From IMG/VR virus record IMGVR_UViG_3300042154_003393, positions 1 to 31,025 of that record: 31,025 nt of DNA. One strand, 5' to 3'. Made by a program: the position numbers and the translations under genes. Shown in pieces: positions 3,748 through 28,440 of the stretch. This stretch comes from a virus. Each line of letters opens with the position of its first letter. Position 1 is the first letter of the stretch. The notes beneath the pieces were generated by a model. It made no database searches, was not told the origin of the DNA, and saw only the letters and a list, made by a program, of their open reading frames with translations.

Positions 3748-4042
3748 ACAATTAAATATGGTAAAGGTTTTAACTACGGCTGTCATAGTAGCTATGGCAA
3801 TGCTATTTATTCAAGTTTATTTTACATCATCTTCACAAAAGCAACTAAAAGAAGTTCAATCAATTTGTGATAGTTTACAAACTAGAGTATTACAAGCAGA
3901 AAATTTTGCAGATAGTATTAAAAGTGAATTATTTGTATATGAAACTCAATTAAATCGCTATTATATTGCTCTTGAGATGTTAGAAGATGAAAACTATGCA
4001 GCAGCATCTGAATTTAATAAGCGCTTATCAATGACTGAATAA
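3719..4042 (+). CDS. membrane-anchored coiled-coil protein
   Basis: A 107-residue protein. A basic N terminus precedes one membrane helix (residues about 16-36, VKVLTTAVIVAMAMLFIQVYF), then a heptad-like helical region from about 40 to 95. This is the layout of an inner-membrane spanin-like or scaffold protein, but it sits far from the endolysin and no partner lipoprotein is adjacent. The start overlaps the preceding gene and the stop overlaps the ThyA start in a TAATG junction. I cannot assign a function. Confidence 0.6.
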   Translation: MKTSTTKYTKQLNMVKVLTTAVIVAMAMLFIQVYFTSSSQKQLKEVQSICDSLQTRVLQAENFADSIKSELFVYETQLNRYYIALEMLEDENYAAASEFNKRLSMTE

Positions 4043-5118
4043 TGAATAATATAGACCGTCAGTATAAAGAAATATTAGAACATATCTTACATTTTGGTAT
4101 AGATAAGAAAGACCGTACAGGTACAGGCACTAAATCAATCTTTGGTTGGCAAATTAGGCACAATATGAAAGAAGGCTTTCCATTGCTAACTACAAAAAAG
4201 ATGGCGTGGAAAACTATGGTAACAGAGTTACTATGGTTCCTAAGAGGTGATACTAATATCAAATACCTTGTTGATAATGGTTGTCATATTTGGAATGGTG
4301 ATGCAATTAAGAACTATGAAAAATATAACGGCGAAATTGATTGGGGTCCGTTTGTTACAAAGGAAGAAGCATTTGTAGAAAAAATAAAAACAGATGATGA
4401 GTTTGCTAAACAGTGGGGGGAGTTAGGACCAATCTATGGTAAGCAATGGAGAAACTGGAATAGTAGAAGCGTATTCTATAAAGGTACTGAACACGTAGAC
4501 CAAATCGCAAACCTAATCTCAGAACTCAAAATAAATCCAGATAGTAGAAGATTAATGGTTAGTGCTTGGAATGTAGGTGAATTAAATCAAATGGTACTTC
4601 CGCCTTGTCATTATGGTTTTCAAGTTTATACGAGAAAGTTGAGTTTAAAAGAAAGGTATAGCATTGCCAAATACGACTGGCCGCCAGATGGTTTACATAA
4701 TGTAGCTATAAATCGTTTAGAACAACGAAACATTCCAAGAAGAGCAATCTCTCTAATGTGGAATCAACGTTCAGTAGATACATTCCTTGGTCTACCATTC
4801 AATATTGCTTCATATGCACTACTACTTGAGATTATTGCTAAAGAAGTAAACATGGTGCCTGAAGATTTAATTGGTAATTTAGGTGACGTTCATTTGTATA
4901 ATAACCATATTGAACAAGCTAAAGAACAAATTACTAGAACTCCATATGAATTACCTAAAGTTCAAATAACTGAAAGGAATTGGTATATGCATGAAGCAGT
5001 TAAAGAACATCTTGGAGAAAAAACATTTAGCGAAAAAATACTAAGTTACAGACCAGATTGTTTTGAGTTAATAAATTATCAATCGCATTCAAAAATAAAA
5101 GCTCCCTTAAGTAATTAA
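4042..5118 (+). CDS. thyA: thymidylate synthase ThyA
   Basis: Methylates dUMP to dTMP using methylene-tetrahydrofolate. The hallmarks are DRTGTGTKSIFG near the N terminus, the folate/substrate loop GPIYGKQWRNW, the catalytic cysteine C189 in LPPCHYGFQVY, NQRSVDTFLGLPFNIASYAL with the dUMP-selective Asn N254 intact, and GDVHLYNNHIEQ. At 358 residues it is longer than E. coli ThyA (264). Extra residues lie at about 95-125 and at 199-236, where a basic insert (KERYSIAKYDWPPDG...) separates the catalytic Cys from the phosphate-binding RS-D segment. It completes a dCMP to dUMP to dTMP route with the deaminase at 1340. It ends 4 nt inside the convergent gene on the other strand. Confidence 0.97.
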   Translation: MNNIDRQYKEILEHILHFGIDKKDRTGTGTKSIFGWQIRHNMKEGFPLLTTKKMAWKTMVTELLWFLRGDTNIKYLVDNGCHIWNGDAIKNYEKYNGEIDWGPFVTKEEAFVEKIKTDDEFAKQWGELGPIYGKQWRNWNSRSVFYKGTEHVDQIANLISELKINPDSRRLMVSAWNVGELNQMVLPPCHYGFQVYTRKLSLKERYSIAKYDWPPDGLHNVAINRLEQRNIPRRAISLMWNQRSVDTFLGLPFNIASYALLLEIIAKEVNMVPEDLIGNLGDVHLYNNHIEQAKEQITRTPYELPKVQITERNWYMHEAVKEHLGEKTFSEKILSYRPDCFELINYQSHSKIKAPLSN

Positions 5119-7375: not shown

Positions 7376-7975
7376 ATGGACATAAGCAAACTTAAAGGGC
7401 ATATCCCTGATGCTGTTATTACACAGCTACCAGACACAATTGCTAAATTTGAATTAAACACTCCACTTCGTTTAGCACATTTTCTTGCTCAAGCAGGCCA
7501 CGAATCCGGTGGATTTAAAGCAGTTAACGAAAATTTAAATTACGGAGCAAAAGGTCTATTGAGTATATTCAAGAAGTATTTCCCAACAGAAGAAAAAGCT
7601 AAATTGTATGAGCGCAAGCCAGAAAAAATTGCTAATCTAGTTTATGGAGCTAGAATGGGTAATGGCCCTGAAGCTTCTGGAGAGGGTTATAGATTTCGTG
7701 GCAGAGGCTATATTCAATTAACCGGAAAAGATAATTATAAAGCATTCGATGCAGTAGTAGCCGAATCAATCATTGATAATCCAGATTTAGTTGCAACAAA
7801 GTATCCTCTACTTTCTGCTGCATGGTTTTTCCATAAAAATGGTCTTCATAAAATTGCAGATCAAGGTGCTACAGATGCTGTAGTTACTTCAGTTACCAAA
7901 AGAGTAAATGGTGGTACCATAGGTCTTCCTGACAGAATCAAGCATTTCAAAGAGTATTATAGCTTATTGAAGTAG
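7376..7975 (+). CDS. GH19 (chitinase-type) endolysin
   Basis: A 199-residue lysozyme-like peptidoglycan hydrolase of glycoside hydrolase family 19. The catalytic glutamates are probably E43 in GHESGGF and E52 in NENLNYGAKG, nine residues apart as in loop-less GH19 enzymes. The substrate-cleft motif FRGRGYIQLTGKDNY follows at about 107-121. There is no signal peptide, so export to the murein would depend on a holin, consistent with the small membrane proteins directly downstream. It starts a probable lysis cassette extending to about 10818. The upstream gap ends in TATTTATATACT right before the ATG. Confidence 0.93.
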   Translation: MDISKLKGHIPDAVITQLPDTIAKFELNTPLRLAHFLAQAGHESGGFKAVNENLNYGAKGLLSIFKKYFPTEEKAKLYERKPEKIANLVYGARMGNGPEASGEGYRFRGRGYIQLTGKDNYKAFDAVVAESIIDNPDLVATKYPLLSAAWFFHKNGLHKIADQGATDAVVTSVTKRVNGGTIGLPDRIKHFKEYYSLLK

Positions 7976-8691: not shown

Positions 8692-9807
8692 ATGAAAAAT
8701 CTATCTAAAGAAGAATTACTAAGTAGGCTTGAAGCGATTAATCGTAGCAATGCTATCATCTATTTTGACCTAACTGGAAAAATTTTAGGTGTTAATGCAA
8801 TATTTTTAGAAGCAATGGGATATGGTGCAGATGAGCATGCAGAACTTATTGGTAAGCACCATAGTATTTTTGTATGTGAAGATTATGCAAGATCATTGGA
8901 ATATGAAAAGTTCTGGGATATATTAAGAAGTGGTAAATACTATCAAGGAGAATTTGAAAGAAGGAAAAGAGACGGTAGTCTTATCAACTTACAAGCAACA
9001 TACAATCCTATTTACGATGAGAGTGGTACAATTACTAAAGTAATGAAAGTTGCTACTGACATTACTATGATTGTAAATAGTAAAAAACAGATAGACGCAA
9101 TTAATAAGAGTACTGCAACTATTACTTTTGATATTAATGGTTTTATTGTAGATGCTAATTCTGTGTTTTTAGAAACCATGGGATATAGATCAAATGAAAA
9201 AAGCCAAGTGATAGGAAAGCATCATAGTATTTTTGTAACTTATGAGTATTCAAAATCAGATGAGTATAGTAAGTTTTGGAAATCCTTAAAAAGCGGCAAG
9301 TTTTTTGACGGAATATTTGAAAGAAAAAAAGTGGATGGCTCTACTATCTATTTACAAGCCACCTATAATCCAGTCTTTGACAGCAAAGGAAATGTTACAA
9401 ATGTAATCAAAATTGCTACTGATGTTACTGAAGCTGTCAATAGTAAAAACAAGATAGATGCCCTATCAAAAGATTTACAAATTGAATTGGATAACTCTAA
9501 AAAACTGAAAGACGCAATTGAAATAGAAAAAAATGCTGCGTTAAATGATTTAGATGTGGTAATGAAAAAAAGTCAATCCGAGTTAATTAAGGTGATTGTA
9601 AAAGTTGCATTAGCAGTTATTATTGGCGTAGGTGTTGTAACAACTACATTGTATTGGATGGCAATGCTTACTGGTAAGGATACACAGATTATTGGCTCTA
9701 CTTGGAGTAACATGTTTAGTGTATTATTGACAAATGCGTTTTCAATAGTTGGAACAATTATGGGTATAAAATACGCCACTCAAGAAGGTAGTAAAAATCA
9801 AAAATAA
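8692..9807 (+). CDS. tandem PAS-domain protein with two-helix membrane tail
   Basis: A 371-residue protein. Two PAS domains lie at about 15-125 and 134-245. They are recent-looking duplicates, each with IGKHHSIF (53 and 174, a 121-residue period), a FW-x-LxSGK segment, ATYNP and K-x-ATD-T endings. This subtype is known from PAS modules at the front of methyl-accepting chemotaxis proteins. A coiled coil follows (about 250-298), then two membrane helices (about 300-325 and 340-360) and a short Lys-rich tail. No kinase, GGDEF or chemotaxis signalling domain is present. The membrane tail resembles the neighbouring holin-like proteins in size and layout. It sits inside the lysis cassette, which suggests a redox, oxygen, light or ligand input to a membrane lesion or to superinfection sensing; that is inference. 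The cofactor is unknown. Confidence 0.85.
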   Translation: MKNLSKEELLSRLEAINRSNAIIYFDLTGKILGVNAIFLEAMGYGADEHAELIGKHHSIFVCEDYARSLEYEKFWDILRSGKYYQGEFERRKRDGSLINLQATYNPIYDESGTITKVMKVATDITMIVNSKKQIDAINKSTATITFDINGFIVDANSVFLETMGYRSNEKSQVIGKHHSIFVTYEYSKSDEYSKFWKSLKSGKFFDGIFERKKVDGSTIYLQATYNPVFDSKGNVTNVIKIATDVTEAVNSKNKIDALSKDLQIELDNSKKLKDAIEIEKNAALNDLDVVMKKSQSELIKVIVKVALAVIIGVGVVTTTLYWMAMLTGKDTQIIGSTWSNMFSVLLTNAFSIVGTIMGIKYATQEGSKNQK

Positions 9808-10818: not shown

Positions 10819-10841
10819 TAATTAATAATTTAGTAATATTA

Positions 10842-10874: not shown

Positions 10875-10880
10875 ATTTAT

Positions 10881-13130
10881 ATGAAATTAAAAACGTTATT
10901 ATTTTTACTATTCCCGGTTCTGTCATTTTCTCAAGACACAATTTTTAATCAAAAACTAGACAATATTACAATTCGTTCTGTACAAAAGAAAGAATCCAAT
11001 ATTGCCGTTGTTAATAGTATCAGAAATAGTTCTGTTATATCTGATGGTCTTTCTATTGAATTTATAAAAAAGACTCCTGACCGTAGTGTAGGTGACGCAC
11101 TCAAAAGAGTTAATGGTGTTACTATACAGAACGATAAATTTGTATTGGTTAGAGGTTTAGCAGACAGATATAACTCTGCTATGTTGAATAAAACCATTTT
11201 ACCTTCAACAGAACCTGATCGTAGAGCATTCTCATTTGATATTATTCCCTCAGGACTTATAGATAATATCATAGTAGCAAAGTCAGCTACAGCTAATTTA
11301 CCCGGTGATTTTGCAGGAGGTATTGTTCAAATAACTACAAAAGATGTGTCCAATGATTTTTTCTCATTAGGCCTCGGAATGAACTACGGGGCCGTATCAA
11401 CTTCCCAAAATTTCAAATTGGTGGATTATACGACCGTCCCCACTCAATTTCCATCCACATACACTTACCGCGTAAGCACAAACACAGAGAAAAGGAATTA
11501 TACAAGCCTTATAAAGTCTCCAGACGCCAAACAATTTAAATCCATTCCTAACTTAAATGGATCAATGTCTTTTGGTTTAAAAAGAAATAAGTGGAACTTT
11601 TTATTTAGTTCAACAACAAGAAATACATTCCAATTAAACTACATTGATAGACAAGATTATCAATCTTCAACTGAATTAGCTTACAAATATAAAGATACTT
11701 CATTTAGTAAGGTGCAATTATTAAATGCACTAACTAATATTACTTATACAGGAAAGAATAAGTATAGTTGGAAAACATTATTTAATCATCAAGTTGAACA
11801 AACGTATTTAACTCGTAATGGTGAAAATTATGATAATGTTCAAGATGTAAGAAGTACAGCATCTAACAATATAATTAAAACATTGATCAATTCACAATTT
11901 GATGGCAAGATTAAAACTTTTGATTTTAATGTAGGATATAACTTAATGATAAGAAAACAACCAGACTATAGAATTAATCCAATAACTAAATCATTAGGTG
12001 TTAATGAACCTTATGCAACAGCATGGAGAGATACTTATCGTTTCTGGAGTGATATGGATGAAAATGGTTTAAATGCTAGTGTGAATAAACAACTAGGTAA
12101 TTTTAAAATGGGTTCAAGCTATATTAAAAAATATAGAACTTTCAAAGCTAGAATCTTTAGATATACTTCTATAGACATGTTAGATGAAATTACTAACAAC
12201 ACAGACAAGTATTCAGCAGATTTTGATTTAGCGAGTGCGTATGCTTTATATGAAGGCGAGTTAAATGGTTGGAAAGTAAATGCAGGTTTAAGAACAGAAT
12301 ATAATTTGTTTAATGTTAATACTGCAGATTTTAGTGGACAAAAAGTTGATGTAAATAGGAAGTACTTAGACTTTTTACCGTCGGTAAACTTTTCTTATGA
12401 ATGGGATAAATTCAAATATAGAATATCTGCTAGTAAAACATTAGCAAGACCTGAATTTAGAGAAGTGGCTAATTTTGCTTATTATGATTTTGTACGTAAT
12501 GCTCAATTATTGGGTAATACTAATTTAGAAAAAACAGATATATACAATATTGATATTAAATTAGAATACTATCCTAAACAAGGTGAAAATATATCTGCCG
12601 CTTTCTTTATTAAAGACTTTAAAAAGCCAATTGAACAAATAGTAGCAGATGGATCTGTACCATCAAACCTATTATTAACTTACTTGAACCCAGATCAAGC
12701 ATTAGTTGCTGGATTTGAAATAGAATTTCGTAAAAAAATAACTAATTGGTTAGATGCTTATACTAATACTTCTATAGTTAAATCTGAAGTTATTGTTAAT
12801 GGAAGAAAAAGACAATTACAAGGACAATCTAATTATGTTGTAAATGGTGGATTGAATTTACATAAAGGAAAAAATACGTTTAACATTTCTTATAACAGAG
12901 TTGGAGATAGAATATCTGCGGTAGGTTTTCAAGGATACGATGATATATTTGAAAACTCTAGAGATGTTATAGATTTAGTATTCTTACGTAAAGTAGGTAA
13001 AGGAGAAATAAAATTAGCAGTAGGTGATATACTTGCCCAACCATCTGTTTATTATCAAAAATCAAGAGGCAATTTAATTAAAACAAATAACGAACAATCA
13101 ATTTCATTAACATTTAATTTGAATTTATGA
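10881..13130 (+). CDS. TonB-dependent outer-membrane receptor
   Basis: A 749-residue protein. The signal peptide ends VLSFSQ (about residue 18). A plug domain spans about 35-155, with characteristic segments TPDRSVGDALKRVNGV, VLVRGLADRYNSAML, PSGLIDNIIVAKS and LPGDFAGGIVQITTKD. The rest is an alternating aromatic beta barrel ending in SLTFNLNL. Such receptors import scarce nutrients (metal chelates, vitamins, glycans, phosphorus compounds) across the outer membrane, powered by host TonB-ExbBD. Many Bacteroidota homologues carry an extra N-terminal CarboxypepD_reg-like domain; it is absent here. The gene overlaps the next lipoprotein by 4 nt. Substrate unknown. A TonB receptor on a phage-like genome is unexpected; it could feed the infected cell, mask the receptor or exclude other phages. 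Confidence 0.93.
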   Translation: MKLKTLLFLLFPVLSFSQDTIFNQKLDNITIRSVQKKESNIAVVNSIRNSSVISDGLSIEFIKKTPDRSVGDALKRVNGVTIQNDKFVLVRGLADRYNSAMLNKTILPSTEPDRRAFSFDIIPSGLIDNIIVAKSATANLPGDFAGGIVQITTKDVSNDFFSLGLGMNYGAVSTSQNFKLVDYTTVPTQFPSTYTYRVSTNTEKRNYTSLIKSPDAKQFKSIPNLNGSMSFGLKRNKWNFLFSSTTRNTFQLNYIDRQDYQSSTELAYKYKDTSFSKVQLLNALTNITYTGKNKYSWKTLFNHQVEQTYLTRNGENYDNVQDVRSTASNNIIKTLINSQFDGKIKTFDFNVGYNLMIRKQPDYRINPITKSLGVNEPYATAWRDTYRFWSDMDENGLNASVNKQLGNFKMGSSYIKKYRTFKARIFRYTSIDMLDEITNNTDKYSADFDLASAYALYEGELNGWKVNAGLRTEYNLFNVNTADFSGQKVDVNRKYLDFLPSVNFSYEWDKFKYRISASKTLARPEFREVANFAYYDFVRNAQLLGNTNLEKTDIYNIDIKLEYYPKQGENISAAFFIKDFKKPIEQIVADGSVPSNLLLTYLNPDQALVAGFEIEFRKKITNWLDAYTNTSIVKSEVIVNGRKRQLQGQSNYVVNGGLNLHKGKNTFNISYNRVGDRISAVGFQGYDDIFENSRDVIDLVFLRKVGKGEIKLAVGDILAQPSVYYQKSRGNLIKTNNEQSISLTFNLNL

Positions 13131-14317
13131 AAAAGCTAATTTTATTTTTAGTAATTATCGGTTTATTTGCTTGTAAAAAAGAACCTATAGATCCACCTAT
13201 AAATGTACCTACTGACAAAACAATTACGGGTAACATTACAATAACTACAACTCTTACTTCTGACAAAGAATGGACTCTAAGAGGATACGTTTATGTTAAA
13301 GAAGGTGCTACATTAATTATTCAAGCAGGAACTGTAATTAAAAGTGATATTGCAGAAAAAGGTGCTTTATGTATCGAAAGAGGTGCAAAGATTATTGCAG
13401 AAGGAACAGCAACAAAACCAATCATTTTTACCTCAGGAAAAATCGCCGGCGAGAGGTCTCCTGGTGACTGGGGTGGAATTGTAATATTAGGCAAAGCAAA
13501 AACTAATCGTTCATCAGAACCAACTATTGAAGGTGGTATTGGTCGTCCATTTGGTGGTAATGATGATGGAGACAACAGTGGTATTTTGAAGTATGTTCGT
13601 ATTGAATATGCAGGAATTGCCGCATTACCTAACTCAGAAATTAATGCACTTACTTTAGGTGGTGTAGGTTCTGGTACTATAATTGAAAATGTACAAACAA
13701 TCTATGCTAACGATGATGCATTTGAATTCTTTGGCGGAACTGTTTCTCCAAAAAATCTTTATGCGTATGCTACAGCAGATGATGACTTTGACTTTGATTT
13801 TGGTTACACTGGAACTGTAACAAATGGTATTGCAAAACGTGATCCTTTGTTTGTAGACAACGGTGACGCAGGTAATGGTGTAGAATGTGATAATGATGGT
13901 GTGGGCTCACTGGCACAACCATTTACGCATCCTAAATTAATTGGAATGGTATTAGTTGGACCTAATAATCAAACCGCATTAGCGAACCACAATCTAGGTT
14001 TAAGGTTTAGAAGAGCTACACAATTTACAGTAAAGAATAGTGCTATCTACGGTTGGATAAAAGGTGGATTAAGTTTAGAAAGTAATGAAACAGCTCAAGC
14101 AATAAAAGACGGTGTATCTATATTTGAAAATAATTCAGTAGGTGCATTCAATCCAACTCAAAACTTTATTAGTAAAGCAACAACAATCCTAACTAATGAT
14201 CAACTTAAAACACTAGCTTTAGGAAAAGGTAATAAAGAGATTGATGTTATTATTCCTGAATTAGCTATGCCTACTTGGATCAATGGTTGGACTAAATTTC
14301 CTAGTAAGGGACAATAA
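13127..14317 (+). CDS. TonB-receptor partner lipoprotein, beta-helix-like
   Basis: A 396-residue lipoprotein. The lipobox LFAC has lipidated Cys16, followed by KKEP, which resembles the Bacteroidota lipoprotein surface-export signal (Lys plus acidic residues after Cys). The mature part starts with Thr/Ile-rich turns (ITGNITITTTL, GYVYVKEGATLIIQAGTVIKS) typical of right-handed beta-helix or passenger-like folds, and contains Asp/Gly-rich stretches (NDDGDNSG, DDDFDFDFGYTG) that could bind metal. The start overlaps the TonB receptor stop (ATGA), so the pair is co-translated. Proteins of this look sit next to TonB receptors in Bacteroidota genomes and may capture the ligand; no ligand can be named. 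Confidence 0.75.
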   Translation: MKKLILFLVIIGLFACKKEPIDPPINVPTDKTITGNITITTTLTSDKEWTLRGYVYVKEGATLIIQAGTVIKSDIAEKGALCIERGAKIIAEGTATKPIIFTSGKIAGERSPGDWGGIVILGKAKTNRSSEPTIEGGIGRPFGGNDDGDNSGILKYVRIEYAGIAALPNSEINALTLGGVGSGTIIENVQTIYANDDAFEFFGGTVSPKNLYAYATADDDFDFDFGYTGTVTNGIAKRDPLFVDNGDAGNGVECDNDGVGSLAQPFTHPKLIGMVLVGPNNQTALANHNLGLRFRRATQFTVKNSAIYGWIKGGLSLESNETAQAIKDGVSIFENNSVGAFNPTQNFISKATTILTNDQLKTLALGKGNKEIDVIIPELAMPTWINGWTKFPSKGQ

Positions 14318-14929: not shown

Positions 14930-15317
14930 GGGGATAACCGGTATCGATCCGAATGTTGAGGTAATACTACATGCAGGCATTTGAGTATACTGCCTTAGAA
15001 GATACTAAACAATAAACGCTGAAGAATTATCTTCATTCACTTTCGAAGACGCAATGTCTTTCGTTGGTGCTGACTACGCAGTAGCTGCCTAGTCAAACTC
15101 GGGTGAGTAACCTAGGAACAGAACTACTCCGAGTATTCACGATCGACTCGTTAAATAAGGACTGTAGATTGTTTTCTTGATAGTCATAAAATCAAGTGGT
15201 GGATCCGACCATAACAAGTCAGCCCTTACGGTGCAGCGCAAGCAGTACTAAGCATGTGAGACGTTAGTATTATTGTCTCTTTCGGAGACGTGGGTTCGAA
15301 TCCCACTATCTCCACCA
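14930..15317 (+). ncRNA. ssrA: transfer-messenger RNA (tmRNA), one-piece, CCA encoded
   Basis: The 388-nt gene has a perfect tRNA-like domain. GGGGATA at the 5' end pairs with TATCTCC at the 3' end, giving the alanyl-tRNA-synthetase identity pair G3-U70. The T arm is GTGGG-TTCGAAT-CCCAC, with discriminator A and encoded CCA. The D-like loop shows the tmRNA consensus AACCGGTATCGATCC. The tag frame most likely resumes at GCT 15018 and ends at TAG 15090-15092, encoding 24 residues ending DYAVAA, the hydrophobic protease-recognition tail. Bacteroidota tags are usually about 9-13 residues, so this one is long. tmRNA with SmpB rescues stalled ribosomes. Phage-borne copies are known but uncommon. 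The resume codon is inferred. Confidence 0.96.
15018..15092 (+). other. tmRNA tag reading frame (24 residues)
   Basis: Within the tmRNA, the motif AATAAAC precedes GCT at 15018. From there the frame reads 24 sense codons to TAG. The beginning AEELSSFTF and the ending GADYAVAA are visible; the final AVAA fits tags read by ClpXP-type proteases. The long, Phe- and Ser-rich middle is unusual. Confidence 0.75.
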
Positions 15318-19063: not shown

Positions 19064-20506
19064 ATGATAAATGGTTATATTCCTCAAGCACAAAGAAAAA
19101 AAATTCTTTTTCTATGTGATGATATTAGAATGACAAGCGGAATCTCTACAATGGCTAGAGAAATAGTTGTAGGAAGTTCTCATGTATTTAATTGGGTAAA
19201 TGTAGGTGGAGCAATTAATCATCCTGATCAAGGAAAAAAGTTAGACATATCTACTGATACAAATAGAATCATGGGCATAAATGATTCTTCTGTTTTTATT
19301 TATCCTACTAATGGGTATGGAAGTCCTGAATTAATTAGACAATTAATTGAAATAGAAAAGCCGGATGCTATTTTCTTTTTTACAGATCCTAGATATTGGG
19401 TTTGGTTATTTCAAATGGAAAATGAGATTAGGAAAAAAATACCTATGGTGTATTTAAATATTTGGGATGATCTTCCTGCTCCATTATACAATGAATCATT
19501 TTATGACTCTTGTGATACTTTAATGGCTATATCAAAGCAAACTCTTAATATTAATAGAATGGTATTAGGAGATAAAGTAAAAGGAAAAATTCTTAAATAC
19601 GTTCCTCATGGAATTAATGAAAAGATATTCTATCCTATTACTGAATTTATGCAAAATCAGAATGAGGCTTTAGAAAAAAAGAAAAAAGAAATATTCGGTG
19701 ATTTTAAACCTGAGTTCGTAGTATTCTATAATGCCAGAAATATTAGAAGAAAATGTACTTCTGATTTAATTGCCGCGTATGCAATGTTCTGTGATAAGAT
19801 AGGAAAAGAAAAGGCTAGCAAATGTGCCCTATTAATGCATACTCAAAGAGCAGATGAAAATGGAACTGACTTAAATGCAGTAGTAGATTTAATATGTAAT
19901 CCAGAATATCAAAAAGTATATTTCTCAGATGCAAGACTTAATGCAGAAGAAATAAACTTGCTTTATAACATGTCTGATGTGACTGCTTTAATTTCATCTA
20001 ATGAAGGTTGGGGATTATCTTTAACAGAATCTATGATGGCAGGTAGAATGATTATAGCTAATGTTACAGGAGGAATGCAAGATCAAATGAGATTTGAAGA
20101 TGAAGATGGTAAGTGGATTGACTTCAATGATAAATTCTGTTCAAATCATTTTGGCAAATATAAAAACCATGGAGAATGGGCGTTACCAGTATTTCCTACT
20201 AATATTAGTATTGTAGGATCTATACCTACTCCTTACATTTATGATGATAGATGTGATTTTAGAGATGTTGCTAAAGCAATTGAAGATTGTTATAATTTAT
20301 CTCCTGATGAAAGAAGTAGAAAAGGTATGTCAGCTAGAGAGTGGGTATTATCTAATGAATCTATGATGAGCGCAGCTCATATGTGTGATAATGTTATATC
20401 TACTATAAATGAAACTATTGATACATTCAAACCTAAAAAACAGTTTGATTTAATTAAGACAGAAAAATTAGAAAGAAAAAAAATTGTACACCCTTTAGTT
20501 TATTAA
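19064..20506 (+). CDS. GT4-type glycosyltransferase
   Basis: A 480-residue GT-B protein. The N-terminal Rossmann region (KKILFLCDDIRMTSGISTMAREIV) contains the glycine-type acceptor loop. The C-terminal donor motif NEGWGLSLTESMMAGRMIIANVTGGM has the E(x7)E signature of retaining GT4 enzymes. It transfers a sugar from a nucleotide donor to a growing glycan. It is the first gene of a long same-strand glycan region, 1 nt before the next glycosyltransferase. Donor and acceptor unknown. Confidence 0.85.
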   Translation: MINGYIPQAQRKKILFLCDDIRMTSGISTMAREIVVGSSHVFNWVNVGGAINHPDQGKKLDISTDTNRIMGINDSSVFIYPTNGYGSPELIRQLIEIEKPDAIFFFTDPRYWVWLFQMENEIRKKIPMVYLNIWDDLPAPLYNESFYDSCDTLMAISKQTLNINRMVLGDKVKGKILKYVPHGINEKIFYPITEFMQNQNEALEKKKKEIFGDFKPEFVVFYNARNIRRKCTSDLIAAYAMFCDKIGKEKASKCALLMHTQRADENGTDLNAVVDLICNPEYQKVYFSDARLNAEEINLLYNMSDVTALISSNEGWGLSLTESMMAGRMIIANVTGGMQDQMRFEDEDGKWIDFNDKFCSNHFGKYKNHGEWALPVFPTNISIVGSIPTPYIYDDRCDFRDVAKAIEDCYNLSPDERSRKGMSAREWVLSNESMMSAAHMCDNVISTINETIDTFKPKKQFDLIKTEKLERKKIVHPLVY

Positions 20507-20507
20507 T

Positions 20508-21812
20508 ATGAAACAGTTGTGCGTAATTAGTTGTCCTATTGACACGTATTCAGGTTATGGTGCTAGATCTAGAGACTTTGTTAAAGCTCTATATGAATTA
20601 AAAAAAGAAGAGTATGATATTAAAATCATATCTCAACGTTGGGGAGTTACTCCTTGGGGATATATTAAAGACAATAAACAAGAATATAGTTGGTTAGAAC
20701 CTTTAATTCTACAAGTTCCTCAATTACCAAGACAACCAGATATTTGGATTCAAATCACTGTACCAAACGAATTTCAATCTATAGGAAAGTATAATATAGG
20801 TTTAACCGCAGGTATTGAAACAACAATTTGTGATCCTAGTTGGATTGAAGGAGTTAATAGAATGAACATAACTTTAGTATCTTCAGAACACTCTAAAAAA
20901 GTATTTCAACAATCTACATTTGAAAAAAGAGATCAACAAAATCAAGTTCTTGGAGTAGTGAAACTTGAAAAGCCAGTTGAAGTTTTATTTGAAGGAGTAG
21001 ATTTAAATAAATACTTTCATATTGAAGATGAAGATCTTGAAGAAACAGACGTAGTGCTTGAATTAGACGAAATCAAAGAAGAGTTTTGTTTTCTATATGT
21101 AGGACATTGGCTTCAAGGAGAAATTGGTGAAGATAGAAAAAATACTAGCTTAATGCTAAAAACATTTCTAGAAACATTTAAAGGTAAAAAAAATAAACCT
21201 GCATTAATAATGAAAACATCTGGTGCAGGATCTAGTATAATGGACCGTGATGAAATGCTTAAAAAGATAGATGCTATTAAAAATACAGTTGATGGAGATT
21301 TACCTAGTGTATATTTACTTCATGGTGAATTAGATGATAAAGATATTAACAATCTTTACAACCATCCTAAAGTTAAAGCAATGTTTAATCTAACTAAAGG
21401 TGAAGGATTTGGTAGACCTTTATTAGAGTTTACACTTAGTAAAAAACCAATTATAGTATCTGCTTGGTCTGGACATATAGATTTTCTTGATCGTGAATTC
21501 TGTTGTTTAATTGGCGGAGAATTAAAAAATGTTCATCCATCTGCCCAAGTACAAAATATGATATTGGCAGAGTCTATGTGGTTTAGTCCAGATATTAATG
21601 AGGCAAGTGCTTACCTAAAAAATGTTTATGAAAAATATTCTAAATATGAAGAATTTGCTAAACGACAGTCTCATATATCTAAAACTAAATTCTCATTTGA
21701 TGAAATGAAAAACTTACTTGCTAGCTATTTAGATAGAATACCAAAACAAGTAGGACTACAACTTCCTCAATTAAAGAAGATTGAACTTCCTAAACTTAAA
21801 AAAGTAGACTAA
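20508..21812 (+). CDS. GT4-type glycosyltransferase
   Basis: A 434-residue GT-B protein. The N-terminal segment CVISCPIDTYSGYGARSRDFVKAL and the donor motif GEGFGRPLLEFTLSKKPIIVSAWSGHIDFL show the E(x7)E arrangement of GT4. The C-terminal Lys/Pro-rich tail (QLPQLKKIELPKLKK) is low-complexity. It follows the first GT4 by 1 nt and overlaps the next start (TAATG). The pair probably acts on successive sugars of one glycan. Confidence 0.85.
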   Translation: MKQLCVISCPIDTYSGYGARSRDFVKALYELKKEEYDIKIISQRWGVTPWGYIKDNKQEYSWLEPLILQVPQLPRQPDIWIQITVPNEFQSIGKYNIGLTAGIETTICDPSWIEGVNRMNITLVSSEHSKKVFQQSTFEKRDQQNQVLGVVKLEKPVEVLFEGVDLNKYFHIEDEDLEETDVVLELDEIKEEFCFLYVGHWLQGEIGEDRKNTSLMLKTFLETFKGKKNKPALIMKTSGAGSSIMDRDEMLKKIDAIKNTVDGDLPSVYLLHGELDDKDINNLYNHPKVKAMFNLTKGEGFGRPLLEFTLSKKPIIVSAWSGHIDFLDREFCCLIGGELKNVHPSAQVQNMILAESMWFSPDINEASAYLKNVYEKYSKYEEFAKRQSHISKTKFSFDEMKNLLASYLDRIPKQVGLQLPQLKKIELPKLKKVD

Positions 21813-22054
21813 TGACATCAAGTGAATTTACAATATGGTTAAAAGGATTTGTAGAAGCTTGTAATGACTTTGCTCCTACACCTAAACAATGGGATAGAAT
21901 AAAAGAAGTTCTAGAAAAAGTATCTGATAACAAAAGCTTTTCTATAGGAGTAGGTGGGACTGGTTTTCTAAATGCATCTGGGAGAACAGACGTCACTTCA
22001 TTACCATCAGGAACAAATATAACATATACAACAAAACAACAACTCAATGACTGA
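21812..22054 (+). CDS. conserved small phage protein
   Basis: An 80-residue protein. The start EFTIWLKGFVEACNDFAPTPKQWDRIKEVLEKV is a short conserved helical module common in marine phage genomes. The second half is Gly/Ser/Thr-rich and disordered. No catalytic motif. It overlaps the next gene by 8 nt. Role unknown. Confidence 0.6.
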   Translation: MTSSEFTIWLKGFVEACNDFAPTPKQWDRIKEVLEKVSDNKSFSIGVGGTGFLNASGRTDVTSLPSGTNITYTTKQQLND

Positions 22055-22493
22055 TAATTTAATAACATGCCCAAAGTGTAAAGCGCCCGAGTCCTGTTAC
22101 ACTCAGCCTGTAAATGAATTTCACAAAGCTTATGTTTGTCTATCTTGTGGTTTTCAAACAAATGATTTAATGTGTGAAGGTGAATTTAACTTTGAAGAAT
22201 ATGAAAATGAACTTCCTGAGCTTTATAGAGATATAAAACAAACTGATGAAGATGGGAGAGTTTGGTATCCTAATGTAATTAATATAGAAGGTAAAGGAAC
22301 TGTATTTGCCAATGGTACTTCAAAAGAAGAATGGGAGTGGAGTTCTATTAAAAGTGTAAAGCTTACTAAAGAAGAAAAAGAACTTCCTAAATTTAAAGGA
22401 AAAAAGTACAAATCAGATTCTAAGACACTAAAAAGTTTTGGTAAAGATTATTTTGAAGCTTGTGAATATATTGGCTTCTTTGATATAAAATAA
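22047..22493 (+). CDS. zinc-ribbon phage protein
   Basis: A 148-residue protein. An N-terminal zinc ribbon (CPKC...CLSCGF, residues about 8-36) is followed by an acidic region (ENELPELYRDIKQTDEDGRVWYP) and a Trp-rich WEWSSIKSVKL stretch. Similar hypothetical proteins with CPKC and ELYRDIxxxDxxGxxWYP occur in T4-like marine phages. Role unknown. Confidence 0.6.
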   Translation: MTDNLITCPKCKAPESCYTQPVNEFHKAYVCLSCGFQTNDLMCEGEFNFEEYENELPELYRDIKQTDEDGRVWYPNVINIEGKGTVFANGTSKEEWEWSSIKSVKLTKEEKELPKFKGKKYKSDSKTLKSFGKDYFEACEYIGFFDIK

Positions 22494-22498
22494 ATGTT

Positions 22499-23098
22499 AT
22501 GCCATCAATTAGTTATGCTATAACCGCCTGTAACGAGCACAGGGAACTATCATTTCTATTAGAAGTTTTACGTAATAATATACGTCAAGAGGATGAAATC
22601 GTGGTCCAATTAGACTCTAATGCGACTAAGGAAGTTAGAGAGGTTGCTAAAGACTATATAGAATTCCCTCTTAATAAAGACTTTGCCTCATTTAAAAATA
22701 ACTTGAGTAAACATTGCACTAAAGATTACATCTTTCAAATAGATGCAGATGAATATCCACATCAGTATTTAATTAGCAACTTGGCAGATATATTAGAATA
22801 CAATCAAACAATTGATGTACTTTTAGTACCTAGAATAAATACTGTATCAGACTTAACTGAACAACATATTCAAAAATGGGGATGGAGAATTGATGAAAAA
22901 GGATGGGTCAACTTTCCTGATTATCAATGGAGGATATGGAAAAACAATAGTAAGATTAAATGGATAAATAAAGTACATGAGAGACTAAGTGGTTTTGAAG
23001 AGTATTCGCTACTGCCTCAAGAAGAAGGTTACTGCTTATTTCATCCTAAAGATATAGTACGACAAGAAAAACAAAATCAGTTTTATAATACAATCTAG
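22499..23098 (+). CDS. short GT2-family glycosyltransferase
   Basis: A 199-residue GT-A protein. It starts ISYAITACNEHRELSFLLEVL, the GT2 nucleotide-binding strand and loop, with VQLDSN and the DxD-like QIDADEYP metal site. The C-terminal part contains WRIWKNNSKIKWINKVHERL and FHP, seen in small phage and bacterial GT2s related to the WaaE/lgtF type. It is likely an inverting transferase in the glycan pathway. Shorter than most GT2 proteins, but the catalytic half is complete. Confidence 0.75.
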   Translation: MPSISYAITACNEHRELSFLLEVLRNNIRQEDEIVVQLDSNATKEVREVAKDYIEFPLNKDFASFKNNLSKHCTKDYIFQIDADEYPHQYLISNLADILEYNQTIDVLLVPRINTVSDLTEQHIQKWGWRIDEKGWVNFPDYQWRIWKNNSKIKWINKVHERLSGFEEYSLLPQEEGYCLFHPKDIVRQEKQNQFYNTI

Positions 23099-23100
23099 TT

Positions 23101-24462
23101 ATGACAAAATCAGAAACGTATCAAGATTTAGAAGGATATCAATTTACAGAAAAAGAAATTCTTAGATTAGTACAAAGATATATAGAAGAAAAACATTATA
23201 AAAAAAGTTGGGAAGCAGGAAAAGATTGGGTTCAATATGCAGGACCATATTTCTCATCTGATGAATATGTAGCAGCAGTTAAAAGTTTACTTACTGAATG
23301 GTTGGTATTAGGAGCTGAGGCAAATAAATTTGAAACTAAATTTCCTAAAAAATTTGGTAAAGACTATGGACTACTAGCCAATTCAGGATCTAGTGCAAAC
23401 CTATTAATGATGCTAGCTATGACATCTAAAAGAGGTCGTAACTTACCTAAAGGCACAAAAGTAATTACACCTATCGCAGGTTTTCCTACTACTATCAATC
23501 CTATATTACAAGTGGGATTTACACCTATCTTTGTTGATATTGAACTTGAAACTCTTAATCTAGATCTTGATCAAGTAGAACAAGCTTGTATAAATAATCC
23601 TGATGCAAAAATTATTACATTTGCTCACGTATTAGGAAACCCTCCTAATATGAATAAGTTAATGAAGATTATTGAAAAGTATGAATTAATTTTATTAGAA
23701 GACTGTTGTGATGCATTAGGATCTTTTTATGAAGGAAAACCTTTAGGATCGTTTGGTGAATTAGCAAGTTGCTCATTCTATCCAGCACATCATATGACTA
23801 TGGCAGAAGGTGGATTCGTTGCATGTAAAGATGAACAAACTGAAAGAATCATTCGTAGTTTTAGAGAATGGGGTCGTGGTTGTTATTGTATAGGTAAACA
23901 AAATTTATTAGAGAAAGGATCTTGCGGTTGCAGATTCAATAATTGGCTACCAGCATTACCAAATGATTTGTTTGATCACAAATATGTGTATGAAGAAATT
24001 GGATATAATTTAAAACCTATCGAGCTTCAGGCATCAATGGGATTGGTGCAAATGGAGAAGCTAGAAGAGATTGGACAAAAAAGAAGAGAAAACTATAAGA
24101 ATCTATTTAGTGCATTTAAAAAGCATGAGCAGTACTTCCATTTACATGAAGCGCAGTCTGGTGCAGATGTAGATTGGTTTGCGTTCCCAGTAACTTTAAA
24201 GGATGATGCTCCATTTAAAAGATCAGATATTTGTCAGTTCTTTGAAGCAAATAAAATACAAACAAGACCTTACTTTGCAGGTAATATAATGTTACAACCA
24301 GCATATGAAGGACTTATGGATCCTAAAGATGTAATAGAGAAATTTCCTGTAGCAAGAAAAGTTACAACAGATACATTCTTTTTAGGAACATCGCCTGTAA
24401 TTAATAAAGAAAAGATAGACTATATAGAAACTATTCTTAATAAATTTATTAATCAATTATGA
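23101..24462 (+). CDS. PMP-dependent nucleotide-sugar 3-dehydrase (E1/RfbH-like)
   Basis: A 453-residue DegT/DnrJ/EryC1-fold protein in which the usual PLP lysine is replaced by His: H230 in FYPAHHMTMAEGG. This is the mark of 3-dehydrases. Cysteines C203-X57-C261-X1-C263 match the [2Fe-2S] ligand spacing of CDP-6-deoxy-L-threo-D-glycero-4-hexulose-3-dehydrase (E1), and the distance from C203 to H230 (27) also matches. The fourth Cys (C275 or C277) is displaced by a short insertion. The reaction removes the C3 hydroxyl of a 4-keto-6-deoxy nucleotide sugar on the way to 3,6-dideoxyhexoses. E1 needs an E3 reductase, not seen in this window. Because GDP-mannose dehydratase follows, a GDP-sugar substrate (ColD-type) is also possible. 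Confidence 0.85.
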   Translation: MTKSETYQDLEGYQFTEKEILRLVQRYIEEKHYKKSWEAGKDWVQYAGPYFSSDEYVAAVKSLLTEWLVLGAEANKFETKFPKKFGKDYGLLANSGSSANLLMMLAMTSKRGRNLPKGTKVITPIAGFPTTINPILQVGFTPIFVDIELETLNLDLDQVEQACINNPDAKIITFAHVLGNPPNMNKLMKIIEKYELILLEDCCDALGSFYEGKPLGSFGELASCSFYPAHHMTMAEGGFVACKDEQTERIIRSFREWGRGCYCIGKQNLLEKGSCGCRFNNWLPALPNDLFDHKYVYEEIGYNLKPIELQASMGLVQMEKLEEIGQKRRENYKNLFSAFKKHEQYFHLHEAQSGADVDWFAFPVTLKDDAPFKRSDICQFFEANKIQTRPYFAGNIMLQPAYEGLMDPKDVIEKFPVARKVTTDTFFLGTSPVINKEKIDYIETILNKFINQL

Positions 24463-25439
24463 GTAATAAAAAAGCCTTAATTACTGGGATTAATGGACAA
24501 GACGGTGCATATTTAACAGAATTTCTTTTGGAAAAAGGATATGATGTATATGGAATATTAAAACGTAATTCTGTTTCTGAAAATCAAACATCAAGACTTA
24601 ATACGATTTATTCTAAAATAAAAAGTAATTTAGAATATGCAGACATGACTGATATATCGTCTCTTTACAGAGTAGTCAATAAAATAAACCCAGATGAAAT
24701 CTATAATTTAGCTGCGCAATCTCATGTAAGAATATCATTTGATCAACCTATTTATACAGTTAATGCTACTGGCATGGGTGTATTAAATTTAATGGAAGTT
24801 GTGAAAGAAGTTTCACCACTTGCTAAAGTGTACCAAGCATCTTCATCAGAAATGTTTGGAAATTGTATTGATCAAGATGGTTTTCAAAGAGAAGATACTC
24901 CGATGAATCCAGTGTCTCCTTATGGATGTTCTAAATTATTTGGATATAACATAACTAGAAATTATAGAAATTCTTATAATTTATTTGTATCAAATGGAAT
25001 TTTATTTAATCATGAATCTCCAAGAAGAGGTACCAATTTTGTTACAAATAAAGTAGTAAAAGAAGCTGTTAAAATAAAATTAGGATTATCTAATGAATTA
25101 GTTTTAGGTAATTTAGATGCATCAAGAGATTGGGGACATGCAAAAGATTATGTAAAAGCAATGTGGTTAATTCTTCAATTAGATAAGCCTGGAGATTATG
25201 TATGTGCAACAGGAATATCTCACACTGTTCGTGAACTTGTAGAATATGTTTTTAGTAGATTAGACATGAACTGGGAAAACTATATTAAACAAGATCAAAA
25301 ATTTTTTAGACCAGAAGAATTAAATGATCTTAAAGGAGATCCAACTAAATTAAAAAAAGATACAGATTGGAAACCTGAATATACTTTTGAATCTATGTTA
25401 GATGAAATGATTGAGTATTGGCAAAAAGAATTTAAATAA
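24459..25439 (+). CDS. gmd: GDP-mannose 4,6-dehydratase
   Basis: A 326-residue extended SDR that makes GDP-4-keto-6-deoxy-D-mannose. NAD(P)-binding TGINGQDGAYL, GILKRNSVSEN, NLAAQSHVRISFDQP, the SSSEMFG active-site strand, SPYGCSK (Y-x-x-x-K), FNHESPRRGTNFVTNKV and LGNLDASRDWGHAKDYV are all hallmark Gmd motifs. It overlaps the 3-dehydrase stop by 4 nt. The product is the precursor of GDP-fucose, -rhamnose, -perosamine or -colitose; neighbouring genes decide which. Confidence 0.96.
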   Translation: MSNKKALITGINGQDGAYLTEFLLEKGYDVYGILKRNSVSENQTSRLNTIYSKIKSNLEYADMTDISSLYRVVNKINPDEIYNLAAQSHVRISFDQPIYTVNATGMGVLNLMEVVKEVSPLAKVYQASSSEMFGNCIDQDGFQREDTPMNPVSPYGCSKLFGYNITRNYRNSYNLFVSNGILFNHESPRRGTNFVTNKVVKEAVKIKLGLSNELVLGNLDASRDWGHAKDYVKAMWLILQLDKPGDYVCATGISHTVRELVEYVFSRLDMNWENYIKQDQKFFRPEELNDLKGDPTKLKKDTDWKPEYTFESMLDEMIEYWQKEFK

Positions 25440-25470
25440 TCATACTAAAAAATTATTTAAATTTTATAAA

Positions 25471-26427
25471 ATGAAAAAAGCTTTAATTACTGGAATTCAT
25501 GGTATGGTTGGTAGTCATATGGCAGACTTCCTTTTAAATAAAGGATATGAAGTATATGGAACCTCTAGAAATATAGATGTTAAACATTCTAATATAGAAG
25601 CTTGTAAACATAAAATTCATTTACTGCAAGCGGACTTAAGTGATAAAAAATCAATAGCTAATGCAATAGAATTAAGTAATCCTGATGAAATTTATAATTT
25701 TGGAGGAGTATCGTTTGCTCCAAATAGTTGGACCTTCCCAGAATATACTGCTGATGTTAATGGTGTAGCAGTATTAAAAATATTAGAAATAATAAAAAAT
25801 ATTAATCCTAATATAAAATTATATCAAGCATCTAGTAGTGAAATATTTGGAAATTTAAAAAATATTATTGCTAATGAAGATACAACATTAAATCCAAAGT
25901 CTCCTTACGGGTGTGCTAAATTATATGCTCAATGGATAATAAAAAATTATAGAGAATCTTATGGAATATATGCATGTAATGGAATTAGTTTTAATCATGA
26001 ATCAGAAAGAAGAGATCCTAAATTTGTTACAAGAAAAATAACTAAATCTGTAGCTGAAATTTCATTAGGTAAAAAAGATTTTATTGAATTAGGGAATATA
26101 AATGTTAGCAGAGATTGGGGATATACCCCAGATTTTATTGAGGCTATGTGGATGATGCTACAAGATAAAATATCAGATGATTATATAATTGCAACTAATA
26201 AGTCTCATACATTAAAATATCTTTTAGAAATAGCTTTTAATACTGTTGGAATATCTAATTATAAAGATTATATAAAAATAAATCCTGAATTCATCAGACC
26301 AAATGAAGTTGATAATTTAAAAGGCGATTATAGTAAAATAAAAAACAAACTTGGTTGGGAGCCTAAAACAAGTTTTGAAGATATGATTAAATTAATGGTT
26401 AATAACGATTTAAAATTACTACAATGA
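25471..26427 (+). CDS. SDR nucleotide-sugar dehydratase/reductase (Gmd-like paralogue)
   Basis: A 318-residue SDR related to its upstream neighbour: TGIHGMVGSHM, NFGGVSFAPNSWTFP, SSSEIFG, SPYGCAK, FNHESERRDPKFVTRKI and NINVSRDWGYTPDFI. The start at ATG 25471 begins directly before the Rossmann strand; the upstream ATG at 25411 would add a non-family leader overlapping gmd. The glycine loop GIHGMVGSH and changed substrate-site residues suggest a different step, such as reduction or epimerisation of the Gmd product (RMD/GDP-4-keto-6-deoxymannose reductase) or a second dehydration. Tandem paralogues on one transcript suggest successive reactions. Confidence 0.8.
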   Translation: MKKALITGIHGMVGSHMADFLLNKGYEVYGTSRNIDVKHSNIEACKHKIHLLQADLSDKKSIANAIELSNPDEIYNFGGVSFAPNSWTFPEYTADVNGVAVLKILEIIKNINPNIKLYQASSSEIFGNLKNIIANEDTTLNPKSPYGCAKLYAQWIIKNYRESYGIYACNGISFNHESERRDPKFVTRKITKSVAEISLGKKDFIELGNINVSRDWGYTPDFIEAMWMMLQDKISDDYIIATNKSHTLKYLLEIAFNTVGISNYKDYIKINPEFIRPNEVDNLKGDYSKIKNKLGWEPKTSFEDMIKLMVNNDLKLLQ

Positions 26428-27641
26428 AAATAGTTAAAATAGGAGATCACTACGTATCTGATTTTGTACATTCAGAAGAAGACTATAAAAATAAAAAGAA
26501 ATATAGTTTAGACTTAGAACTAGATGAAACAATAGGTGCAGCAAAACTTATTGAAATAGCTCCTTCTAATACTATGTGGGGTAAATATTGGTACAGATCT
26601 AGTATTAATACTACTATGACCAAAGAACTTGGAGATATAGTAAAAGAAATAACCTCTAGAATTAAATGGAATAAAGAAGATATTTGGTTAGATATAGCTT
26701 GTAATGATGGAACTTTATTAAAACAAATACCGGAAGGATTTATAAAAGTAGGAATTGATCCTGCTGATGATACCTTTTTACAAGAGTCATCTAAACATGC
26801 AAAAGTTGTTCAAGATTATTTTAGTTATAATGCTTATAGTAAATTAAATTTAAATAAAAAAGCAAAAGTAATTACTACTATTGCTATGTTTTATGATCTT
26901 ATAAATCCTGATCCTTTTATTGAAGATATAAATAAAGTATTAGATGACAATGGTATTTGGGTTTTACAAATGTCATATACTCCGTTAATGATTCAGCAAT
27001 TAGCATTTGATAATATATGTCATGAACATGCTTATTACTATTCACTAAATTCAATTAAAAAATTATTTGAAAGACATAAATTAAAAATAGTAGATTGTAC
27101 ATTAAATGACGTTAATGGTGGAAGTTTTAGAGTATATGTCCAAAAAGAAACCGCTAATATTACATCATTTGGCACAAGTCCTTTAAGAGACGTTTGTAAT
27201 TTTAGAATTCAATCTTTACTTAACTATGAAAATACTAGTTTTGACATAGGTAAAAAAGAAGTGTGGGATAAGTTTATGTCTGATATAGAAGATTTAAAAA
27301 ATCAAACTGTAAATTTTATTAAGCAAGAAAAAGCTAAAGGAAAAAAAATATGTGGTTATGGTGCATCTACTAAGGGAAATACTTTATTACAATGGTTTGG
27401 ATTAGATCATACGCTAATTGATGCTATAGCAGAAAGATCACCTTACAAGTATGGATTAAAAACAATTGGAACAAATATCCCAATTAAATCAGAAGATGAA
27501 GTTAGAGCAATGAAACCTGATTATATGATAGTTTTGCCTTGGCATTTCATATCAGAATTTATTAATAGAGAGAATAAGTTTTTAGAAAATGGAGGTAAGT
27601 TTATTGTTCCTTGTCCTAAATTTGAAATAATTTCAAAGTAA
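26424..27641 (+). CDS. sugar C-methyltransferase (TylC3/NovU-like)
   Basis: A 405-residue SAM-dependent methyltransferase. Residues about 90-200 form the methyltransferase core (IWLDIACNDGTLLKQIPEG, then VGIDPA). FDNICHEHAYYYSLNSIKKLFE and DVNGGSFRVYV are the signature regions of sugar C-methyltransferases. The C-terminal domain GYGASTKGNTLLQWFGL...AERSPYKYG matches Methyltransf_14. The N-terminal zinc-binding CxxC part of homologues is not obvious here. It would add a methyl branch to a keto-deoxysugar, consistent with the 3-dehydrase and Gmd upstream. It overlaps the previous gene by 4 nt. Confidence 0.85.
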   Translation: MKIVKIGDHYVSDFVHSEEDYKNKKKYSLDLELDETIGAAKLIEIAPSNTMWGKYWYRSSINTTMTKELGDIVKEITSRIKWNKEDIWLDIACNDGTLLKQIPEGFIKVGIDPADDTFLQESSKHAKVVQDYFSYNAYSKLNLNKKAKVITTIAMFYDLINPDPFIEDINKVLDDNGIWVLQMSYTPLMIQQLAFDNICHEHAYYYSLNSIKKLFERHKLKIVDCTLNDVNGGSFRVYVQKETANITSFGTSPLRDVCNFRIQSLLNYENTSFDIGKKEVWDKFMSDIEDLKNQTVNFIKQEKAKGKKICGYGASTKGNTLLQWFGLDHTLIDAIAERSPYKYGLKTIGTNIPIKSEDEVRAMKPDYMIVLPWHFISEFINRENKFLENGGKFIVPCPKFEIISK

Positions 27642-27645
27642 ATTA

Positions 27646-28440
27646 ATGTATAGTAATTTTTTAATGGGAGGTAAGTTAGGGGATTTTTTACATGCAATGT
27701 TTGCTGTTAAGCACTTGTGTTTAAAAAATAATACTAAAGCAAATGTATACATGTACAATATAGGATGGGAATTTGGAATACAAAATACATATGCAGAATT
27801 AACTCCTATAATGGCTCAACAAGATTATATAAACTCATTAAATATTCTTACGGAATATGAATTAGATCCTATACAAACTCCTGAAAAAAATTCTCTTATA
27901 AAAATATATAATGATAAGTTATTATCAGAAGGATATATAGATCTTGGAACATATGTAAACTCTCCTTATATATATAAAACATGCTGGTCTGAATTATATA
28001 GTAAAACTTTTGATTTTTCTATTAGTGGAGAATACAATTGGATATCCTATGATAAAAAAATAAATGAATTATCAGATAAAGTATTAATTCATCGTAGGTA
28101 TAATCCTATTAGATTAAATCATTATTTTCCTCATAATCAAATATTAGAAGAGTATAAAGATAAAGTTATTTTTATATCATCATCAGAAAAAGATTATAAA
28201 GAATATGGAAAGAATATTCCATTTTTAAAAGTTTCTACATTAGATGAATGGTTTACTTGTATTAACTCTTGTTCACTTATGGTATCTAATCTATCTTCAC
28301 CTGCGGTTATAGCTCATGCTATGGATAAATTAAGAATAATAGAACTTCCTAATATTATAGATGCCGCCCATTGTATTGGAGAAGAAAAATATTCTAAAAA
28401 AATCTATTGGTATATGGATGAAAAATATAATAATCTATGA
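27646..28440 (+). CDS. putative GT-B (GT9-like) glycosyltransferase
   Basis: A 264-residue protein. It starts LMGGKLGDFLHAMFAVKHL, the glycine-rich N-terminal loop of heptosyltransferase-like GT9 proteins (GDx(I/L)). VSNLSSPAVIAHAM, late in the sequence, is a GT9-like donor-site stretch (S-x-S/P-x-x-H). The overall size is smaller than typical heptosyltransferases. It overlaps the next gene by 4 nt. The assignment is from these loops only. Confidence 0.55.
   Translation: MYSNFLMGGKLGDFLHAMFAVKHLCLKNNTKANVYMYNIGWEFGIQNTYAELTPIMAQQDYINSLNILTEYELDPIQTPEKNSLIKIYNDKLLSEGYIDLGTYVNSPYIYKTCWSELYSKTFDFSISGEYNWISYDKKINELSDKVLIHRRYNPIRLNHYFPHNQILEEYKDKVIFISSSEKDYKEYGKNIPFLKVSTLDEWFTCINSCSLMVSNLSSPAVIAHAMDKLRIIELPNIIDAAHCIGEEKYSKKIYWYMDEKYNNL

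Follow-up and report, generated by a model that had tools for sequence, protein, structure and literature searches.

The window analysed here is an entire IMG/VR record, a linear fragment of 31,025 bp, in which two adjacent and intact genes encode an outer-membrane receptor and a lipoprotein. Positions, strand and the basis of each assignment are as follows.

7376-7975, + strand: endolysin (GH19-like), upstream neighbour and part of the phage context (phrog_181, 2.5e-66; PF00182)
10821-10840, + strand: putative Pho box ATTAATAATTTAGTAATATT, 11-bp direct repeat of the TTAAYA type, ~41-60 nt before the receptor start codon (position weight matrix built from bacterial promoters only)
10881-13130, + strand: TonB-dependent outer-membrane receptor, 749 aa, short form lacking the N-terminal CarboxypepD_reg domain (Pfam, AlphaFold, PDB fold matches, homologues)
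10881-10934, + strand: predicted signal peptide of the receptor, MKLKTLLFLLFPVLSFSQ (read from the sequence)
10956-10973, + strand: TonB-box-like motif LDNITI, family consensus LxEVxV (alignment of phage and bacterial receptors)
11046-11321, + strand: Plug domain, aa 56-147 (PF07715)
13127-13130, + strand: ATGA, in which the receptor stop overlaps the lipoprotein start (open reading frames; comparison of phage and bacterial pairs)
13127-14317, + strand: beta-helix outer-membrane lipoprotein of the ElpS/FII type, 396 aa, lipobox cysteine C16 at 13172-13174 (C16 invariance, AlphaFold)

In Pfam, the receptor matched the Plug domain PF07715 (4.6e-7) and the barrel domain OMP_b-brl_3 (2.4e-23). Its AlphaFold model (pLDDT 86, with values below 50 at residues 10-38 only) has the plug-and-barrel fold of TonB transporters, and a Foldseek comparison with the PDB returned, at E 1e-25, TonB-dependent transporters of known structure, among them two that are partnered with a surface lipoprotein (8bmx, 9gbc). 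The sole match in NCBIfam was TIGR01782 (TonB-Xanth-Caul) with 177.6 bits, which is under the cut-off of 310. Having a Plug domain, a large beta-barrel, a signal peptide and a TonB-box-like motif, the protein is a TonB-dependent receptor, and its initial annotation as a complete one was borne out by Pfam, AlphaFold and Foldseek.

The same annotation had described a 396-residue lipoprotein overlapping the receptor gene by 4 nt, and both the length and the overlap were confirmed in the open reading frames. The lipobox reads LFAC, its cysteine C16 is invariant across 54 homologues, and 72 invariant columns are common to the phage and bacterial proteins. The predicted fold is a parallel beta-helix (pLDDT 91). 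No match to the lipoprotein was found in Pfam, PHROGs, NCBIfam or the PDB sequences, and a fold search yielded nothing in the PDB under E 1e-3 and generic beta-helix proteins only (tailspikes, PL6 lyases); therefore, no enzymatic function is claimed. The ATGA overlap suggests that translation of the lipoprotein is coupled to that of the receptor.

The neighbours that had been named initially, i.e., the endolysin, a tmRNA (14930-15317) and three tRNAs, were all found again. The gene order endolysin, w8022, PAS protein (91%), receptor, lipoprotein, w14402 and w14688 is the same in an independent contig (L073), and a 162-kb contig (G006) carries homologues of 29 of the 45 window genes in largely collinear order, together with the capsid protein Gp23 and a terminase. 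Because independent contigs match the order of the window on both edges of the pair, a chimera at 10880 or 14320, against which a check of contig continuity had been advised, is very unlikely. Among 30 pair-bearing contigs tested, a terminase was present in 15 and a T4-like Gp23 capsid protein in 13, and no Gp23 was found in 14 control bacteria and archaea (0/14). PhoH occurred in 11 of 15 large contigs; as most control bacteria had it too, it was not used as phage evidence. One Gp23 capsid gene match, at G005:C1:113418-114815 (the contig of L033), reportedly contains two in-frame TAA codons, possibly reflecting an intron, a frameshift or an assembly error.

That the pair is host DNA, brought in by a chimeric assembly, by a prophage in host DNA or by a mis-binned chromosome, would agree with the frequency of the family on Bacteroidota chromosomes, where a homologue was present in 196 of 296 sampled genomes. 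However, the genes on either side of the pair follow each other identically in independent contigs, Gp23 and terminase share contigs with it, and the phage copies form a separate clade having its own 4-nt overlap (see below), which leaves this explanation with a negligible probability. Host contamination and chimerism were thus rejected on the strength of contig collinearity and phage hallmark genes, and the reading as a real, phage-borne pair was upheld.

Approximately 100 IMG/VR contigs bear the pair, which answers the initial suggestion to look for it in other phage genomes; the largest of them are 326, 221, 202, 181, 171 and 162 kb in size. Scans of viral contigs resulted in 21 receptor loci and 121 lipoprotein relatives, 80 of which were kept, and a wider viral scan using the family alignment mostly returned the same contigs again. 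Two faecal 'Bacteriophage sp.' records, both short and without annotation (MT837092, MT838075), were excluded from the phage count. Both of these unverified records (L104, MT837092.1; L103, MT838075.1) contain a receptor and a lipoprotein of the family and may be bacterial fragments.

The exact 4-nt overlap between receptor and lipoprotein genes was conserved in 54 of 55 distinct phage pairs, whereas an overlap of any length occurred in only 7 of 81 bacterial pairs. Of the full-length distinct phage receptors (n = 47), 22 have the short form, like the window receptor, and 25 the long form. The receptor had a dN/dS ratio of ~0.13 and the lipoprotein one of ~0.11 (~0.12 overall), and therefore both phage proteins are under purifying selection. 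In other phages (L002, L024, L037) the pair is flanked by different genes than in the window, and the pair therefore behaves like a cassette.

In a tree of 70 lipoprotein sequences, the 31 phage representatives formed one clade with an SH-aLRT support of 98. Its sisters are three freshwater Cytophagaceae loci, one of which lies on a 2.5-Mb chromosome contig, and outside the phage clade and these sisters the tree is bacterial throughout. The lipoprotein search was biased to close relatives, and more phage lineages may exist. The Cytophagaceae receptor carries the extra CarboxypepD_reg domain. The pair was probably acquired once in the phage clade of the window, from a freshwater Cytophagaceae-like host, and has since been retained by selection across a broad group of T4-like phages.

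A search for chromosomal homologues in Bacteroidota had also been advised, and it placed the relatives beside genes for phosphate uptake and its regulation. The closest chromosomal relatives (L242 and L243, with 71% and 70% lipoprotein identity, respectively) have the gene order receptor, lipoprotein, alkaline-phosphatase-superfamily enzyme and PiT phosphate transporter, and near the former a second PiT, a Porin_O_P phosphate porin (OprP), a metallophosphoesterase and a glycosyltransferase are also found. In 37 of 79 other bacterial loci, a PiT, DUF47 or OprP-like porin gene lies at a distance of at most 8 kb, and in the same set a PhoR-like gene was identified in 25 and a PhoB-like gene in 21 loci; about half of these 79 loci have no recognised phosphate gene inside 8 kb. 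PhoB-PhoR adjoins the pair in two further genomes (L316, L317), and in another (L324) the pair is located beside pstSCAB. At some Bacteroidota loci (L203, L208, L213, L221 and similar ones), the beta-helix lipoprotein is tandemly duplicated or fused, with open frames of 860 to >2,300 aa.

When 56 non-redundant upstream regions of bacterial receptors were searched for motifs, the best solution, which came from random starts, was GTTAACATTGccgTAACATT, an 11-bp direct repeat of the TTAACA type. The resulting matrix scored at least 8 bits upstream of phoB in 15 of 18 cases, compared to 40 of 342 other genes, and also marked the promoters of metallophosphoesterase (17/19) and porin (8/19) genes. 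This enrichment at phoB, metallophosphoesterase and porin promoters fits a Pho box. The bacteria-derived matrix was then applied unchanged to the phages with a cut-off of 6 bits. Scores of at least 6 bits were obtained for 17 of 31 phage receptor upstreams, the other 14 being under the cut-off, versus 3 of 199 control intergenic upstreams from the same contigs (Mann-Whitney p = 2e-13). The site in the window scored 7.7 bits and its own shuffles at most 3.2. The repeat is retained in phages at 64-73% receptor identity, usually 70-80 nt ahead of the start. Computational prediction of Pho boxes in phage genomes is known to be unreliable and calls for binding tests (PMC10976474). By the repeat upstream of it, the phage pair would qualify as a PhoB-regulated phage gene set, and its control by PhoB is a prediction from the promoter sequence.

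Pairs of this kind have been described in bacteria. In F. johnsoniae, the TonB-dependent transporter Fjoh_0545 and the lipoprotein FII, Fjoh_0546, form PUSIV in the PhoBR operon beside phoBR and oprP, and respond with a log2FC of 8.0 and 9.9 to Pi depletion only (PMC8115612). The domains reported for them (pf07715, pf14905; PMC8115612), the pectin-lyase-like fold of the lipoprotein, the adjacency and the PHO association are the same as for the window pair, which was likened to them through domain architecture and gene order, not by direct sequence comparison. Fjoh_0545/0546 differ in being chromosomal and in having an N-terminal CarboxypepD_reg domain (pf13715), and their operon is paralleled by the two loci in which PhoB-PhoR lies next to the pair. 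In Caulobacter crescentus, the surface lipoprotein ElpS (CC0170) and the TonB receptor CC0171 are, like the window pair, such a combination; they belong to the response to phosphate starvation and are connected with phosphatase activity outside the cell (PMC2996285). The sub-threshold TIGR01782 match of the window receptor is a likeness to CC0171, whereas ElpS differs by its link to a type II secretion system and its release from the cell. The identity between ElpS and FI-FIII, lipoproteins of F. johnsoniae, is reported as ~31-36% across about half the length of the latter (PMC8115612). By the adjacency of its genes and its phosphate-linked chromosomal homologues, the window pair appears to belong to the same PHO-regulon class of TonB-dependent transporter and ElpS/FII lipoprotein. 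The lipoprotein may capture a specific ligand, as the initial annotation had proposed; ElpS/FII lipoproteins have been associated with phosphate starvation and with phosphatase activity. BtuB-BtuG and XusA-XusB are also two-part TonB transporters with a surface lipoprotein and are represented among the PDB fold matches of the receptor (8bmx, 9gbc), but they transport B12 or siderophores and their lipoproteins have no sequence match to the window family.

Taken together, the pair is most probably a phosphate-acquisition system of the phage, copied from an outer-membrane PHO-regulon system of Bacteroidota and presumably under the control of the host PhoB. Infection of a phosphate-limited cell would meet active PhoB, which would bind the upstream Pho-box-like repeat and activate the phage promoter. 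Receptor and surface lipoprotein would then be co-translated during infection, exported and placed in the outer membrane, where the host TonB-ExbBD would energise uptake by the phage receptor. The substrate brought into the periplasm would be phosphate or phosphorus-containing organic molecules. The phage copies supply only the outer-membrane step, and host phosphatases together with PiT or Pst would complete the uptake and feed phage DNA synthesis. The benefit to the phage may be that the phosphorus supply is kept up after shutdown of host transcription, as has been proposed for cyanophage PstS.

Other functions of the pair were considered as well. Phage-expressed surface proteins often mask or exclude, as Llp of T5 does on FhuA, and TonB receptors commonly serve as phage receptors, so the pair might replace or cap a host TonB receptor that is used by the phage itself or by competing phages. 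The fold search indeed returned FhuA bound to T5 pb5, a match that is not specific, since it was one among many TonB transporters. Receptor masking or superinfection exclusion needs neither a promoter of this type nor transporter features, yet the Pho-box-like promoter is kept, as are the TonB box, the plug and the 72 invariant lipoprotein columns shared with bacteria. It explains less than phosphate acquisition and is considered unlikely.

The initial annotation had named iron and phosphorus as possible nutrients. Both the surroundings of the chromosomal homologues and the expression data published for the family point to phosphate, which favours phosphorus, and iron is disfavoured, the neighbours of the relatives being phosphate genes. 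Many TonB receptors with similar folds carry siderophores or B12, and the TonB receptor of the megaphages Mar_Mega_1 and LR745206 was called SusC and read as carbohydrate uptake (PMC9723777). However, searches of Pfam and NCBIfam gave neither a SusD-like partner (PF07980/PF14322) nor a match to a SusC-specific model, and the lipoprotein is a beta-helix; a SusCD carbohydrate system was rejected on these domain searches. As the chromosomal relatives adjoin phosphate transporters and PhoBR, and the corresponding F. johnsoniae pair responds to phosphate and not to N or Fe depletion, import of a carbohydrate, iron or a vitamin is less probable still than masking. The 634-kb megaphage LR745206 has a distant pair (37% lipoprotein and 27% receptor identity) in which the lipoprotein is upstream of the receptor, and which falls outside the phage clade of the window.

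Phosphate acquisition by the phage would combine two kinds of gene already known, the phage phosphate auxiliary gene and the TonB transporter pair. The best-known phosphate genes of phages are those of marine cyanophages, whose PstS acts at the periplasm and inner membrane. Like the window pair, PstS is a host-derived phosphate-uptake gene in a T4-like phage, and it is under host PhoBR (PMC10976474). PstS, however, works in the periplasm as the binding protein of an ABC transporter in the inner membrane, whereas the window pair would serve an outer-membrane, TonB-driven step in phages of Bacteroidota. What would set the window pair apart is this energy-driven step at the outer membrane, its presence in phages of another phylum and on ~100 contigs, and a promoter motif common to the host PHO regulon. 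The open-access literature searched contained no description of T4-like phages of Bacteroidota that carry a PHO-regulon TonB pair of the outer membrane behind a host-type Pho box, although earlier reports may exist; on phage TonB receptors, only the megaphage paper (PMC9723777) was found there. The matrix also provides a sequence-level Pho-box model for Bacteroidota, of which none was found in the same literature.

It seems somewhat more plausible than otherwise that an old, large clade of T4-like Bacteroidota phages carries PhoB-switched, TonB-driven phosphorus uptake as a coupled two-gene cassette that has changed its place in the genome, and by which the phage would set outer-membrane nutrient permeability following the phosphate state of the host. 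If the pair works as proposed, viruses help the infected cell to gather phosphorus for virus DNA, and freshwater Bacteroidota phages would offer a testable case of tuning infection to phosphate. The megaphage 'SusC' genes would thereby be re-read.

Several further features of the window were observed. The phage tmRNA encodes the tag AEELSSFTFEDAMSFVGADYAVAA and adjoins tRNA-Thr and tRNA-Met genes. In the lysis-gene region, positions 8692-9807 encode a C-terminally membrane-anchored protein with two tandem PAS domains, which is the protein with 91% identity in L073. Two thymidylate-synthase-type genes (1758-2405 and 4042-5118) are accompanied by a dUTPase (913-1365) and a dCMP deaminase (1301-1768); the shorter of the two might encode a deoxypyrimidine hydroxymethylase and, if so, the phage DNA may be modified. 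Positions 19064-30273 contain a long series of glycosyltransferase, sugar-nucleotide (dehydratase/epimerase-like), aminotransferase and methyltransferase-like genes, which is probably a surface-glycan cassette.
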